A stretch of 64,000 nucleotides of DNA from Nitrospira sp. MA-1 (lineage in GTDB: Bacteria; Nitrospirota; Nitrospiria; Nitrospirales; UBA8639), in contig JAQJDB010000005.1 in the NCBI GenBank assembly GCA_032139905.1, positions 231,001 through 295,000 on the forward strand, in the 5' to 3' direction. Below are positions 34,076 to 39,426 of this stretch, piece by piece. The notes under the pieces are model-generated. The model saw nothing but the letters and a program-made list of their open reading frames with translations. It searched no databases and was not told where the DNA came from. Position 1 is the stretch's first letter. Every line of letters starts with the position of its first letter. The position numbers and the translations under genes were made by a program.

Positions 34076-35062
34076 TCAATCCAATTGAAAAGTCAGAGGT
34101 ACGGATAAACTGACACTGTTTGACGTAAGAGGGTGACCCAAATCCAGCGGGGATGCCTGACGTACGATCGTCAACGCGGTTTGGTCGAGCACCTCAAACC
34201 CCGAACTTTCCTGGATTTCCATGTCGATCAGATGACCACCTTCAAGGACTTTCATCTGGACCAGGACTTTTCCCTCCCATTTATTTAACCGTGCAATTTC
34301 GGGGTAGAACTTTAATCGTTCTAACGTTTTCCTCAGATCTGTGATTAACCACCCATAATCGGGGCGTGTCTCCCGTCTCTGAATCGGTGGGTGAAATACC
34401 CGTGTCCGATGAATTATCTTCGGTTCTCTCTGGGCACTCGGTTGCATTACTCGCTCAGCCCGGTCTACGACTCTTTTAACCGGTGGCGGTAATTTTGCGG
34501 TTTGGCCATGGGTAAAAGGCACCGTGTTGATCTGCTCTTGAGTCGATGGTTGAGAGTGTGCGGTGGTTGTTTTTGATGGTGGTCGGGCCTGTTTTTCGGT
34601 ATTCAGAGATTGTTTGACAGGGAATTCGGTTAAGGGGAAGGCGATCGTTTTGGATTGGACGGATAGTTCTGTCGAAAGCTTCTTCCGACCGTCTTCTAAT
34701 GTTGAGCGTGAGTGTTTGCTTGACGCGTTAGGCGTCAAGTGGTGCGAGGATTCAGAATGGGCTACCACGGTTTCTTGAGGTGGCGCTGAAAGAAAGGGAG
34801 ACGGGGTATCGGATGTCACAGGCTCCGGGATGGGAGCGGTGGTCAGTGAAACATTCCAACGAAAGGTGGAAAGTTCCATTTCTTTTTTTGGTTCGCTGGC
34901 TTGAAAGGCCACAGAATAACAAATAGATAAGAACAGGGCGTGCAAAATAAAAGAACCTGCAAGCGCCTGAGAGAATCTGAAGCGCTTATAGGAATGGTGC
35001 TTGGCAGGTTGCCGAATTTGATTGGAAAACGGCTTCTCAGCAACCCAAGTGGCTTTAAGCAT
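34076..35062 (-). CDS. second TonB family protein
   Basis: A 328-residue TonB-like protein with a membrane anchor at about 32-52 (LAGSFILHALFLSICYSVAF), a Pro/Thr/Ser-rich spacer, and a C-terminal TonB domain with YGWLITDLRKTLERLKFYP, WEGKVLVQMKV and a closing VPLTFQL. It resembles the TonB at 31671-32810 in layout and in the YGWL...YP...WEGKV motifs, so the pair look like paralogues. It lies on the same strand, 479 bases upstream of exbB, and presumably shares the one ExbB/ExbD motor. A second TonB may serve a different set of receptors. Confidence 0.88.
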   Translation of the reverse strand: MLKATWVAEKPFSNQIRQPAKHHSYKRFRFSQALAGSFILHALFLSICYSVAFQASEPKKEMELSTFRWNVSLTTAPIPEPVTSDTPSPFLSAPPQETVVAHSESSHHLTPNASSKHSRSTLEDGRKKLSTELSVQSKTIAFPLTEFPVKQSLNTEKQARPPSKTTTAHSQPSTQEQINTVPFTHGQTAKLPPPVKRVVDRAERVMQPSAQREPKIIHRTRVFHPPIQRRETRPDYGWLITDLRKTLERLKFYPEIARLNKWEGKVLVQMKVLEGGHLIDMEIQESSGFEVLDQTALTIVRQASPLDLGHPLTSNSVSLSVPLTFQLD

Positions 35063-35209
35063 GCTCTGACTTTCATGCTTTAACCATTAGGAAGAGGGCT
35101 ATAGGGATTTTGCCCAATGCTTCTTCCCTAGGATGAACGGAGGAAAAGCATCGCGGCTGACTGTCGTTCTCCCCACTTATCACTCAAGGCCCAATGCCTT
35201 AAAACAAGC

Positions 35210-35241
35210 AGAGCCCAAAGGTATATGGACCTTTGGGCTCT
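35210..35241. terminator. perfect 13-bp inverted repeat (terminator-like hairpin)
   Basis: The arms at 35210-35222 and 35229-35241 are exact reverse complements (agagcccaaaggt / acctttgggctct) around a 6-base loop. There is no T-run on either side. It lies upstream of both flanking operons, so its role is unclear: it could insulate the two transcripts, attenuate one of them, or end an unannotated small RNA. Confidence 0.5.
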
Positions 35242-35387
35242 AGCCTCATGGGCTTCTAGCCTCTAATTCCTTCAATGAATGAGGGATTGTCTGCCTTGGT
35301 GATATCTAAATAACAGAATCCTCTTATTTAAGATCTAATGGTAAAAGGTAGTTTTTATTAATTTAGGATGAATGTATGAAATTTTTT

Positions 35388-35406
35388 GATATTGAAAATA
35401 AATATC
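35388..35406. promoter_or_regulatory. candidate Fur box
   Basis: The 19 bases gatattgaaaataaatatc match the classic Fur consensus (gataatgataatcattatc) at 15 of 19 positions. The site lies 326 bases upstream of tonB 2 and 424 bases upstream of the first Cys-rich peptide gene, between the divergent operons. The surrounding DNA is AT-rich, which raises the chance of a random match. Confidence 0.3.
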
Positions 35407-35829
35407 ATTATGTATCAGATGCTGTCAATATGATTCCGAGAACTCGGACTTTTTCGGAACATACTTATGAATCCTGCGTTTTACGTTCAATACTGTTTCA
35501 AATAAATCAATGAAAATTTTCTCGCTACCAAAGGAGAATGCGGTGTCTTGGTTGTTCGGTCGAGAAGCTTCAACAACTGATTTGATGATACGAAGACCCT
35601 GCAAAGAAAAATCTTACTAATCACGAAAATAGTGTCCCCAATACGGGTACCTTTCTGTTGATTCTCTATCTAGAAGTACTTGGGAAATCTGAGAAAGGAG
35701 GGGCACTATTTAAATTGACAAATTATGACCGTTCTTTACAATGGCGCATTGAAAAATTACCACATGAATAATGAGCAATAGCCATTAACCTGAAATAGGG
35801 GTTCCATCTATTTTCAATAGGGGGTAAGT

Positions 35830-36198
35830 ATGCCTGATAAACCGGTTCGTGCCATTGATCCCCTCGGTATTATTGCCCTCGCCGACGTCCTTGTAAATCA
35901 TGGGCCCCTCTACTGTTCATGTGAAGGCAAGCCGGGACCCGGCTGTTCCTGTCAGGACAAACCTCCTGGGTGTTCCTGCGAAGATAAGCCGGGACCTGGC
36001 TGTTCCTGTCAATTGAAGCCCGTCAAAACAGATATTCTTGAGGTGGTATCCAATCCAGTTTTTCGTGAAGTTGTGGCAGGAATGGATATCAGGAAACTCC
36101 AGAGCATAGAAGATTTCCTGTCTATTGTGGACGAAATCCGTACAAAAATGAATTCGTCCAGGCTTCCGACTCGCTCCACGGAGAAGAAAAAATCCTAA
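35830..36198 (+). CDS. Cys-rich RiPP-like precursor peptide 1
   Basis: A 122-residue peptide, homologous to the next gene and upstream of a radical SAM/SPASM enzyme. The N-terminus (MPDKPVRAIDPLGIIALADVL) is shared with peptide 2. The middle (29-64) has four CSC units, each followed by an acidic or amide pair and KP: CSCEGKPGPG, CSCQDKPPG, CSCEDKPGPG, CSCQLKP. Cysteines are at 29, 31, 39, 41, 48, 50, 58 and 60. The C-terminal half (DILEVVSNPVFREVV ... IEDFLSIVDEIRTKMN) is again shared and predicted helical, with a basic tail. The likely modified core is thus central, flanked by two conserved regions. RBS aggggg precedes the ATG. There is no signal peptide. It could instead be a metal-binding protein, but the linked maturase argues for modification. 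Confidence 0.75.
   Translation: MPDKPVRAIDPLGIIALADVLVNHGPLYCSCEGKPGPGCSCQDKPPGCSCEDKPGPGCSCQLKPVKTDILEVVSNPVFREVVAGMDIRKLQSIEDFLSIVDEIRTKMNSSRLPTRSTEKKKS
35914..36021 (+). repeat. four tandem CSC-xx-KP(G) repeats within peptide 1
   Basis: Coding repeats with a 9-10-residue period. The DNA of units 1 and 3 and of units 2 and 4 is similar (tgttcctg...aagccgggac), consistent with expansion by duplication. Peptide 2 keeps only the first two units intact, then CPYD and CTCESKP. Confidence 0.85.
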
Positions 36199-36310
36199 TA
36201 TTTGATTGAAATTGATTCCTCTTACCTTAAAAAGGCGCATGGAAAAAATCATCAGGGGATTATGCGAGACATCGCTGGATCTGAAATTTCCCAAATAGAA
36301 AGGGGTAACC

Positions 36311-36661
36311 ATGCCTGATAACCCGGTTCGCGCCGTTGACCCCCTCGGTATTGTGGCTCTAGCCAAGGTCCTCGCCCAATATGGACATAATGAATGTGGG
36401 TGTGAACTCAAGCCGGGAGGCGGGTGTTCATGCCAAGACAAGCCAGTATGTCCGTATGATGTTCAGTGTACATGTGAAAGCAAACCCGAACCCGCAGACA
36501 TCCTTGAAGTGATGTCCAATCCAGTTTTTCGAGAAGTGGTAAAAGGATTGGACCTGAACAGGCTGAAGAGCATAGAGGATTTTGTATCTATTGCAGACGA
36601 AATCCGTGCGAAAATGAATGCCAAACGTACGACTCGCGCCCCTAGCAAAAGGAAATCCTAA
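36311..36661 (+). CDS. Cys-rich RiPP-like precursor peptide 2
   Basis: A 116-residue paralogue of peptide 1. Both ends are conserved (MPDNPVRAVDPLGIVALAKV; DILEVMSNPVFREVVKGLD, then IEDFVSIADEIRAKMN). The middle differs: cysteines are at 29, 31, 39, 41, 47, 53 and 55, with CGCELKPGGG and CSCQDKP followed by CPYD and CTCESKP. The first four Cys align with peptide 1, so the variable part is the second half of the Cys region. The RBS (aaagggg) matches that of peptide 1. The gene ends 17 bases before the radical SAM gene, a tight operon link. Conserved flanks with a variable Cys core is the pattern expected of RiPP precursors. Confidence 0.75.
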   Translation: MPDNPVRAVDPLGIVALAKVLAQYGHNECGCELKPGGGCSCQDKPVCPYDVQCTCESKPEPADILEVMSNPVFREVVKGLDLNRLKSIEDFVSIADEIRAKMNAKRTTRAPSKRKS

Positions 36662-36678
36662 TTTAAAGGAAAGCTCAT

Positions 36679-38130
36679 ATGCCAACCACCTTACTCATGC
36701 CTGAAAAACGCGGGAAAGATGGCCTTTCTACTTTAGAGAATTTCATTGAAGAGCGAATAGAAGGAGCAGGAGATATCTTTCTTGTTTCATTTCTCAACGG
36801 ATACTTGTTTTACAGTCCCCTTTCGAATTTCAGCATGATTCTTGACGAATTTGGTGTGTCGACCGTTAGGAAATATTTCCGTCAAGAGGAGTTGTTACCC
36901 AATGAGCAAACGCTGATTGACCATCTCAATGAACGCAACGTGTTCAAGATTCCCGAGACCCCACAGCGGACCTTGGTCAAGCCCAGCACACGATGGGCCC
37001 CCACCAGCGCGACCTTCTCCAACACTCAGAAGTGCACCTTGCGGTGCACGTATTGTTATGCGGAAGGTGGGAGGTTGGAAGATCTGGATATCCCCTTGCC
37101 CGTAGCAAAAGGGGCCATTGATTTAATTGTTCAGAACGCACACGTGCAAAATGTGGATCCGTCCATCAGGTTTTTAGGAGAAGGGGAAGCCACGGCCAGT
37201 TGGGGTATATTTCGGGAAATTATTGAATACTACAAAGAACAGTGCAGGGCCAATCATTTCGTACCCTCCATATCGTTGAGCACGAATGGTGTGTTTGCCC
37301 AATCACGGCTGGATTACATTGCGGAAAACTGCACCCACCTGACCTTCTCTTTGGATGGTGTCCGGGAAGTGCATAATGAGCATCGGGTCCTGCCGAAAGG
37401 CGGGGGTTCCTTCGATCGCATTATTGCCACCATGAAGGGGCTTGAGATGCGTGGGAGGACCTACGATATCCGATCGACGGTGACTGCAGCAGGTAGCGCG
37501 ACGTTGGCGGAATTTGTTGCGTTTGTCGGGGAGAACCTACAATGCAAAAGTCTTCACTTCGAACCGGTGTTCGATGCCACAACAGTGACAAACCTGAAGG
37601 ACCAGATTGCACATCTTGATGCGCAGATGTTCGTTGAGAACTTCCGCACCGCAAGACAGGTGGCTGCCGGATTTGGAATCCAACTGCACTATTCAGCCGC
37701 TTCTCTGAAGCACCGGGAGACGTTTTGTGGAGCCAGTGATGCGAGCAATTTCCTGGTCACCTCACGTGGAATTGTGACTTCATGTAACGAAGTTCTTCAA
37801 CCTACCGATCCTCGATCCACGTTGTTCCAATATGGAGCGTGGAATCAGGATGATGGTGAATTCGTTCTGGATCATGAAGCGATTGATCGTTTAGGGAAAC
37901 TCAATGTTCATGATATGCCGAAGTGCCAGGGGTGCATCGCAAAATATAATTGTGCAGGAGACTGCTATGCCAAGAGTGCCTCCTCGACCGGCGACCCGGC
38001 TTCGGCGGGATACACGGAGCGGTGTCATATCACACGGGAATTGCTCAAAGATAATCTGCTCCTTGCGCTCATTTTTACAATGGCTGGTGTTAACACGGGT
38101 GGGTCAGTCCAACATGCTTGTCCCATGTAA
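36679..38130 (+). CDS. radical SAM/SPASM peptide maturase
   Basis: A 483-residue radical SAM enzyme. The first 100 residues (FLVSFLNGYLFYSPLSNF ... LIDHLNERNVF) could be a small recognition or winged-helix region. The radical SAM cluster motif is Cys119-x3-Cys123-x2-Cys126 (CTLRCTYC). The barrel has FLGEGEATASW, SLSTNG and FSLDG. The C-terminal third has the cysteines of a SPASM domain: FCGASDASNFLVTSRG, SCNEVL, then CQGCIAKYNCAGDCY and ERCHI, which should bind two auxiliary [4Fe-4S] clusters. SPASM enzymes next to small Cys-rich peptides usually install thioether or C-C crosslinks. The RBS aaaggaaag is well placed. No protease or exporter gene is adjacent. The reaction is inferred and no described family is claimed. 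Confidence 0.88.
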   Translation: MPTTLLMPEKRGKDGLSTLENFIEERIEGAGDIFLVSFLNGYLFYSPLSNFSMILDEFGVSTVRKYFRQEELLPNEQTLIDHLNERNVFKIPETPQRTLVKPSTRWAPTSATFSNTQKCTLRCTYCYAEGGRLEDLDIPLPVAKGAIDLIVQNAHVQNVDPSIRFLGEGEATASWGIFREIIEYYKEQCRANHFVPSISLSTNGVFAQSRLDYIAENCTHLTFSLDGVREVHNEHRVLPKGGGSFDRIIATMKGLEMRGRTYDIRSTVTAAGSATLAEFVAFVGENLQCKSLHFEPVFDATTVTNLKDQIAHLDAQMFVENFRTARQVAAGFGIQLHYSAASLKHRETFCGASDASNFLVTSRGIVTSCNEVLQPTDPRSTLFQYGAWNQDDGEFVLDHEAIDRLGKLNVHDMPKCQGCIAKYNCAGDCYAKSASSTGDPASAGYTERCHITRELLKDNLLLALIFTMAGVNTGGSVQHACPM

Positions 38131-38283
38131 TCCTGTAAACGAGGACAACGCTATCGACCTGGGGTAGAAGGCAACTATCCTCCATGGTGTCATGGAATGG
38201 CCAATCAATCCATCGGAGCAAACTCTGAAGAAGAAGTAGTGAAGCCTATTATTCCATGTTGGAAGAATTTTAGGGAATTTCTC

Positions 38284-39426
38284 CTAAAGTTTTTCGGCTA
38301 AACGCGCATAAAGACCGGCATGTCGCCTGGCGCTTTCCTCTTTCGTGTATCGCTTGAGCACCTGTGCCCGAGCCTCTTTCAATTTAACCAATGCTGGGGC
38401 CGGGTTAGCGATGATCGCGAGTGCAGCGTCTGCCAACGCGCCAGGATTAGATGGATCGACCAACATACCGTATTCCCCATTTTCAAGAATTTCTGGAAAC
38501 GCCCCGCTACGACTACCCAATAATGGTACCCCGGCGGCAATCGACTCTAACACGACTAAGCCAAACGCTTCGTTGTAAGAGGGGATCAACAAGAGGTCCA
38601 GGTGGGACATCATCTCGCAAATTTGAGTACGGTGCCCCATGAACTCGACGTGGTCCGAGAGTCGGAGGGCTTGAACTTGATTCCTGAGTTCTTTTTCCAA
38701 GCTGCCGGCTCCGACGATTTTGAGTCGAGCGCCGGGTACGGCATCGACAATTTTCCTCATGGCTGCGATTGCCACCTGATGGCCTTTTTCATGTTCGAGC
38801 CTTCCGACAATGCCGAGGACTGGACGGCCGGGATCCGAGAAAGCCCGAACTTCCGGCAAATCAGGCCGGCCCCCAAGAAAGCGGTTTAGATCGAAAAATT
38901 GGTAGATGATTTCGGCACGGCTCCATTCGTAGGGTCGTAACTGTTCCTTCATCAAATGTTTGGCAATGCAAACGTAGGCTGCTGTGCTCGTCGACAGCCA
39001 GCGATGCATGGCATGCATAAACGGTCGCAGAAACCATCGGGGTGGGGGTTCATCAAAATTGACCGTCGTGATGACAATAGGAATGCCGGCCAGTTTGGCA
39101 GCCAGGCGGCCCCATATATTGCAAAACCCTGATTGGGTCTGAACGATATCCGGTTTGAGCCGTCGGAACGTCTTATAATAGGCATGGATAACTTTGATCA
39201 TGCCGACAGGGTCTGTGAGATGGGGTTTGCCCAGCCCGAGTTCATGGATTTTGCAACCGGTCGCCTGTACTGCAGCACCAATGACAGAGGTGGTCGGCAT
39301 CAAGGTGACGATCTCAAAGCTGAAGCGTTCTCGATCGAGTTCTTCGGCCAGCCCCAGCGGAGAATGTTCTCCTCCGGCATCACGGTAAAAACCGAGATAG
39401 ACATACAAAACCGTTAATTTTTTCAT
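38284..39426 (-). CDS. GT4-family glycosyltransferase
   Basis: A 380-residue GT-B glycosyltransferase. The N-terminal half is the acceptor lobe (LYVYLGFYRDAGGEHSPLG). The donor lobe has VLGIVGRLEHEKG, SYNEAFGLVVLESIAAGVP with the Glu-x7-Glu motif, and GMLVDPSNP. These retaining enzymes transfer sugars from nucleotide donors in polysaccharide or glycolipid synthesis. It converges on the radical SAM gene, with 153 bases between them, so it is not in that operon. With two more glycosyltransferases at 41-43 kb it suggests a surface polysaccharide region. Donor and acceptor are unknown. Confidence 0.9.
   Translation of the reverse strand: MKKLTVLYVYLGFYRDAGGEHSPLGLAEELDRERFSFEIVTLMPTTSVIGAAVQATGCKIHELGLGKPHLTDPVGMIKVIHAYYKTFRRLKPDIVQTQSGFCNIWGRLAAKLAGIPIVITTVNFDEPPPRWFLRPFMHAMHRWLSTSTAAYVCIAKHLMKEQLRPYEWSRAEIIYQFFDLNRFLGGRPDLPEVRAFSDPGRPVLGIVGRLEHEKGHQVAIAAMRKIVDAVPGARLKIVGAGSLEKELRNQVQALRLSDHVEFMGHRTQICEMMSHLDLLLIPSYNEAFGLVVLESIAAGVPLLGSRSGAFPEILENGEYGMLVDPSNPGALADAALAIIANPAPALVKLKEARAQVLKRYTKEESARRHAGLYARLAEKL

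Follow-up and report, generated by a model that had tools for sequence, protein, structure and literature searches.

A recurring pair of cysteine-repeat peptide and radical SAM/SPASM maturase in Nitrospira, and a candidate Cys-X2-[DENQ] thioether code

The locus and its conserved pair

The DNA analysed here – referred to as the window – is a 64 kb stretch of the genome of Nitrospira sp. MA-1, in which two small paralogous cysteine-rich peptide genes lie directly before a gene for a radical SAM/SPASM maturase. The features of this locus are as follows:

35715..35742, + strand: sigma-70-like promoter before peptide 1, TTGACA-16-TACAAT (11/12 in a consensus scan; a consensus match only)
35830-36198, + strand: peptide 1, 122 aa (ORF and sequence; homologues in 10 genomes of the order plus the anammox MAG L014)
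35914..36021, + strand: core of peptide 1, residues 29-64, with tetrads C29SCE32, C39SCQ42, C48SCE51 and C58SCQ61 (direct reading)
36311-36661, + strand: peptide 2, a 116-aa paralogue of peptide 1 (ORF)
36395..36487, + strand: core of peptide 2, residues 29-59, with tetrads CGCE, CSCQ, CPYD (one Cys) and CTCE (direct reading)
36679-38130, + strand: radical SAM/SPASM maturase, 483 aa (Pfam Radical_SAM, invariant Cys and model)

Peptide 1 consists of an N-terminal helix segment, a Cys core and a C-terminal helical domain. As an earlier note on this DNA had described, the two peptides have common ends and differ in the core (64% identical overall; at the DNA level 71% at the N end, 56% in the core and 72% at the C end), and the ORF coordinates agree with the 17 bases it gave between the peptide-2 stop and the maturase start. 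Its description of eight cysteines in four CxC pairs holds for peptide 1, whose core is made of four CSC-xx-KP units, but not for peptide 2, which has seven cysteines in the units CGCELKP, CSCQDKP, CPYDVQ and CTCESKP. The source genome encodes one such maturase and two such peptides, with no further copies, and a search of 35000-38600 against Rfam gave no match.

Neither peptide matched a family in Pfam, NCBIfam or the PDB sequences; the sole NCBIfam match is to the copper metallothionein MymT, far under its cut-off (E 0.37, 10.7 bits vs 80), no metallothionein model reaching its cut-off in NCBIfam and none matching at all in Pfam. The maturase matches Pfam Radical_SAM (38.4 bits) and falls under the curated NCBIfam cut-off for each of the best 25 models. 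The nearest is PapB (NF047865; 122.1 bits vs cut-off 340), followed by the SCIFF maturase (TIGR03974; 106.8 vs 425), a ScfB-related orphan model (94 vs 855) and QhpD of QHNDH maturation (TIGR03906; 87.4 vs 453), and these scores place it outside the PapB, SCIFF and QhpD families. Cys-every-fifth CefB (NF038107; 70 vs 600), the CXXX-repeat target family (TIGR04115; 64.5 vs 350) and the sactipeptide model RumMC (45.5 bits) score lower. The earlier note could assign the pair to no class its author knew, and that judgement stands: the family search it had proposed for flanks and maturase found nothing to contradict the pair. No published account of the motif, of Nitrospira RiPPs or of CXXX repeats was found in the literature searched, whose coverage leaves out most subscription journals.

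The arrangement recurs. When the genomes of 84,980 species were scanned, close maturases (70-93% identity) turned up seven times: six times in Nitrospira-type genomes and once in the anammox MAG L014, which encodes hydrazine synthase alpha. A homologous peptide lies directly before each of these maturases. Among 236 genomes of the order the peptide is present in 10 and the maturase (E below 1e-60) in 11; a close maturase (E below 1e-250) occurs in the 10 peptide genomes and in no other, the two genes are adjacent every time, and the eleventh maturase genome, G379, carries a distant relative (E 1e-65) without a peptide. Recurrence in other genomes, which the earlier note had proposed to check, is thus found in 10/236 genomes of the order plus L014, and with no library match its proposal of a RiPP-like peptide paired with a SPASM maturase is supported. 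The genes up- and downstream vary between genera and the peptide and maturase alone are kept, so the cassette consists of two genes; no protease or exporter is conserved beside the pair. For a RiPP in the strict sense, in which a core is cut from a leader, a protease encoded elsewhere in the genome is possible.

Peptide 2, a local duplicate, is complete in L010 as it is in the window, has decayed through a core deletion in L009 and is not present in L011 and L021. The L012 peptide is frameshifted, which may be an error since L012 is a MAG at 4x coverage. Base composition sets the pair apart from its surroundings in several genomes: in L014 its GC content is 46.7%, against 38% in the flanks and 40.8% at the hydrazine synthase locus, and in L013 and L015 it is 51-54% against 56-62% in the flanks. 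This contrast is consistent with the two genes having been transferred together. In the maturase tree, which is too poorly resolved to fix a direction of transfer, L014 groups with the Nitrospira sequences and apart from the outgroup. The maturase was found in 0/293 other genomes of the L014 phylum, and misbinning of the L014 pair is possible. Spread by viruses was considered and rejected, there being no peptide relative in IMG/VR and only distant viral maturase relatives (26-27% identical in IMG/VR, 21-26% in phage records).

The TonB genes next door and a Fur-like site had been taken as hints of metal status, and neither hint bears on the peptides, because TonB is not conserved beside the pair and the Fur-like site lies on another operon. 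TonB/ExbBD adjoin the pair in the window and L011 only; in L021/G385 (a one-contig genome with a maturase 92% identical), L010 and all other genera, different genes flank it. The highest-scoring Fur-like 19-mer in the 64 kb (35388, 15/19) overlaps a minus-strand promoter-like site facing the TonB operon, some 300 bases from the peptide promoter-like site, beside which the Fur-like sequence reaches 11/19 only. A metal-status context was therefore rejected. On the TonB side itself, the minus strand of 35205-35428 carries this Fur-like and promoter-like site, followed, ahead of the tonB start, by a terminator-like hairpin of 14 pairs (kept in L011; RNA folding z -3.3), and may encode a small RNA under iron control or form a leader of the TonB operon. 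The region 337-35062, with large nonribosomal peptide synthetase-type genes (2224-30059), a thioesterase and a TauD dioxygenase beside TonB/ExbB/ExbD, is possibly a siderophore locus.

Selection on the peptide core and its cysteine code

Among the five closest genomes, no pair differs by an amino acid in the 36 codons of the peptide-1 core while synonymous changes number 2-8 per pair, and the C-terminal region and tail do vary; the core is under purifying selection. With the recurrence in other genomes, this sets the observation apart from chance. Selection on the core, together with a maturase that is intact throughout and a promoter-like TTGACA...TAGAAT block kept in the upstream alignment of close relatives, makes it extremely unlikely that the pair is a decaying or selfish remnant devoid of function, an idea that the patchy distribution, the decay or absence of peptide 2 in relatives and the (perhaps erroneous) L012 frameshift could otherwise suggest. 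Between genera the core is rebuilt, and the flanks keep RAxDPLGI-like and SNPxFREVVxGxD motifs. Invariance of the core in close genomes and retention of flank motifs between genera thus suggest that the core is the product part and the flanks serve for recognition or as scaffold. The peptide model has helices at 11-23, 69-73, 76-84 and 93-109 and low confidence in the core (pLDDT under 50), and a Foldseek search returned no match for this model, which is too weak to conclude from. That a central core is unlike most RiPPs had been remarked on previously; it is indeed unusual but not unprecedented, since follower peptides have been described (PMC8172795) and the substrate of QhpD is an entire protein.

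Comparison of eight distinct cores reveals a rule deeper than CSC-xx-KP, namely C-x-(C or x)-[D/E/N/Q]. Of 38 units, 37 carry D, E, N or Q at position +3 from the leading Cys, where 12.2 are expected (0/5000 shuffles, with non-Cys residues permuted within each core and counting from the first Cys of the unit), although the units, coming from homologous cores, do not count as independent observations and the leading-Cys rule was derived from these same data. There is no D/E/N/Q excess at positions +1, +2, +4, +5, +6 or +7; at +4, the spacing of the Cys-X3-Asp motif of PapA/PapB ranthipeptides, such residues occur in 7/37 units against a shuffled mean of 10.1, so the cores do not follow that motif. 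Units with a single Cys (CPYD, CPGN, CGAE, CVSE, CPNQ and CAPE) also obey the +3 rule, so the second Cys does not fix the register. This four-letter code, Cys-X2-[DENQ], is unreported in the literature searched.

Asp, Asn, Glu and Gln have in common a side-chain CH2 that adjoins a carbonyl. They are the acceptor type of the ranthipeptide and QhpD thioethers, and by analogy the code is compatible with thioethers to a non-alpha carbon; we note that a Gln or Asn acceptor with its donor upstream has no documented case in the literature examined, and that the +3 residues could instead be metal ligands or solubility residues. With their many CxC pairs and lysines the cores do resemble metallothioneins, MymT was their only NCBIfam match, and one can imagine a thiolate metal site with the maturase acting elsewhere on the peptide or installing a modification other than a thioether. 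We regard this as quite unlikely, however, as strict pairing with a SPASM maturase is no metallothionein trait, and the +3 code is sharper than metal binding requires and covers single-Cys tetrads. Cyclophane chemistry was judged unlikely, several cores (e.g. that of window peptide 1) having no aromatic residue.

The maturase and the predicted crosslinks

The maturase has the radical SAM motif CxxxCxxC (C119/C123/C126) and the seven-Cys SPASM motif (C350-x13-G-x4-C369, C416-x2-C419-x5-C425-x3-C429 and C449), the combination that marks SPASM RiPP maturases. These ten cluster cysteines are invariant across 16 sequences, and GEGEA replaces the usual GGEP motif in this family. The predicted structure (pTM 0.80) includes an RRE-like beta-beta-beta-alpha-alpha domain at residues 34-85, for which leader binding is putative. 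The best structural match of the model is CteB (5why; Z 31.5, rmsd 3.4 over 395 residues, 22% identity), extending over maturase residues 31-465 and aligned from CteB residue 2, so including its RRE, and CteB is also the nearest solved structure by sequence.

PapB, SCIFF and QhpD enzymes all make non-alpha thioethers. Their model scores (122, 107 and 87 bits) far exceed the 45.5 bits of RumMC, and D/E/N/Q acceptors are expected for Cbeta/Cgamma and not Calpha chemistry; alpha-carbon thioethers of the sactipeptide type made by AlbA and RumMC are therefore very unlikely, even though a SPASM maturase with an RRE would suit them and the PDB title of CteB reflects a first description as a sactipeptide enzyme.

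Each of the known systems shares some features with the pair and lacks others. PapA/PapB (freyrasin) ranthipeptides likewise have several Cys-led thioether motifs with acidic acceptors and a SPASM maturase, but the pair described here has Cys-X2-[DENQ] and not Cys-X3-Asp, N or Q at the candidate acceptor position, a second Cys inside the predicted ring, a middle core, a conserved C-terminal helical domain, and no exporter or protease in the cassette. QhpD, of quinohemoprotein amine dehydrogenase, forms thioethers between Cys and the methylene carbons of Asp and Glu, within the body of a small protein and not in a C-terminal core (PMC8172795), although the QhpC loops are longer (Cys7-Glu16, Cys27-Asp33 and Cys41-Asp49) and our cassette is without dehydrogenase subunits. 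SCIFF (CteA/CteB) offers a Cys-rich peptide beside a SPASM maturase and the closest solved fold, and differs in having a C-terminal core of six Cys within 45 residues and a Thr acceptor, where the core here is central with 7-10 Cys. NxxcA of Streptococcus orisratti has Cys linked to an Asn Cbeta three residues away (PMC8326336), but with the acceptor before the donor (Asn20-Cys23) and one ring, whereas here the donor comes first and there are four to six tetrads. TIGR04115 and CefB (NF038107), by their names Cys-repeat targets with SPASM maturases, are set apart by maturase bit scores. The system thus resembles ranthipeptides or QhpD in its presumed working, and by sequence belongs to no named family tested.

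We propose, with a probability of about 0.5, that the pair is a two-gene protein-stapling cassette making non-alpha thioethers over the Cys-X2-[DENQ] spacing of a central core, without a dedicated protease or exporter. This builds on the strict pairing of the two genes, selection on the core, the code, the enzyme model and analogy with the systems above. The cassette would be self-contained, comprising a precursor protein (sometimes duplicated) and a maturase, whose RRE-like domain may hold the conserved N-terminal peptide segment and perhaps the C-terminal helices too. The radical SAM/SPASM centre would then join the leading Cys of each C-x-x-[D/E/N/Q] to the residue three on, at the beta carbon of Asp or Asn and the gamma carbon of Glu or Gln, giving one small thioether ring per tetrad and four rings in each window peptide, with a predicted mass change of -2.016 Da per ring and about -8.06 Da per peptide. 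The account of PapB (PMC9413430) describes processing of Cys-Xn-Asp to completion for n = 1-5, acceptance of Glu, nested and in-line rings, and MS/MS without fragments inside the rings as the signature of non-alpha thioethers; an X2 ring is therefore chemically reasonable. The thioether crosslinks suggested in the earlier note are accordingly still the best reading, now with a specific candidate acceptor code.

The nested rings of PapB also bring up an enzyme that crosslinks all or most cysteines to other acceptors, for example the conserved Lys at unit position 6, or in nested rings, the +3 residue being a part of recognition only. Both cysteines are kept in most units and Lys is nearly as regular (of all Cys, 24 have K at +3 and 22 at +5), yet single-Cys units hold the +3 residue without a second Cys, CPGN, CGAE, CVSE and CPNQ have no Lys before the next unit, and a Cys-Lys thioether was not found in the literature examined, so that we consider this unlikely. 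If the leading Cys alone is used, as in the stapling we favour, the second Cys in every CxC would remain a free thiol (four in peptide 1, three in peptide 2) and could bind metal or form disulfides; since the favoured code leaves about half of the cysteines free, the metal-binding product raised previously is possible. The product would most likely be a stapled small protein kept inside the cell, because the cassette has no protease or exporter and the peptides no evident signal peptide; in this it would resemble the QhpC subunit more than a secreted antibiotic.

Distant maturases and protein stapling

More distant maturases (26-30% identity) are encoded in the Nitrospirota genomes G379 and G176 and on plasmids of Chlorohelix, Methylocystis and Caballeronia, and their neighbours include CxC-repeat proteins unlike the window peptides. 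These are listed here, 'TAT-type' being a reading of twin-arginine N-termini:

L005:125-1504: TAT-type WD40 protein, ending ...CTCNCVPG...CTCDLICTCNTVCTCQSV...
L026:5-1423: TAT-type WD40 protein, ending ...CVCDCVPG...CTCDCICTCQAV
L040:405-1583: TAT-type WD40 protein, ending ...CTCNCVAG...
L040:1660-2928: TAT-type non-WD40 protein, ending CNPNCTCNLICTCDAQCTCQSYCSIN...
L042:4152-4538: unannotated 128-aa protein with 19 Cys and CxC-[DE] repeats, Methylocystis iwaonis plasmid, directly after the SPASM maturase

Counting over L005, L026, L040 (1660-2928), L041 and L042, the residue at +3 of CxC is D, E, N or Q in 19/28 cases against 6.65 expected (0/3000 shuffles), with no excess at +4 or +6. The fit is uneven, at 7/9 CxC with a weaker excess in the Methylocystis partner and 1/3 in that of Caballeronia (L041). 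These counts support a code shared by unrelated scaffolds, and point to a protein domain, not a small secreted product, as the likely object of modification. More tentatively, and on balance doubtfully, one broad SPASM clade may serve as a general module for protein stapling by small Cys-X2-[DENQ] thioether rings, acting on a dedicated helical carrier in nitrite oxidizers and, in other phyla, on the C-terminal tails of TAT-exported WD40 proteins and on other unrelated scaffolds.

Several other arrangements were seen in passing. The TAT-type proteins of L005, L026 and L040 have C-terminal CxC-[NDQ] tails that start PCGxxxPxGxxCxCxCV, lie beside SPASM maturases, and look like an undescribed exported, maturase-modified family. 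An IMG/VR contig (L016:3771-6107) encodes a 276-aa protein with 76 Cys in CxxC and CYTGQC repeats, followed by a SPASM protein – possibly its maturase – with similar Cys repeats at its own N-terminus. Salmonella and Edwardsiella plasmids (L043:3112-7140 and L057:2250-7278) carry RiPP-like sets of genes for a SPASM protein, a short peptide, an ABC transporter and an S8 peptidase, and at L007:157-1374 a protein with an Arg-rich N-terminus and many closely spaced Cys (CNPDLCTVSDTCSGKDYC) lies beside a distant SPASM protein.

The RiPP chemistry of nitrifiers and anammox bacteria is little explored, and the pair described here points to protein stapling outside secreted natural products; were the broader clade to work in the same way, its product would be a stapled protein domain and not a natural product. 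Compact side-chain staples set by a Cys-X2-[DENQ] code would add a new type of ring to those made by thioether maturases, and may be useful in peptide engineering.
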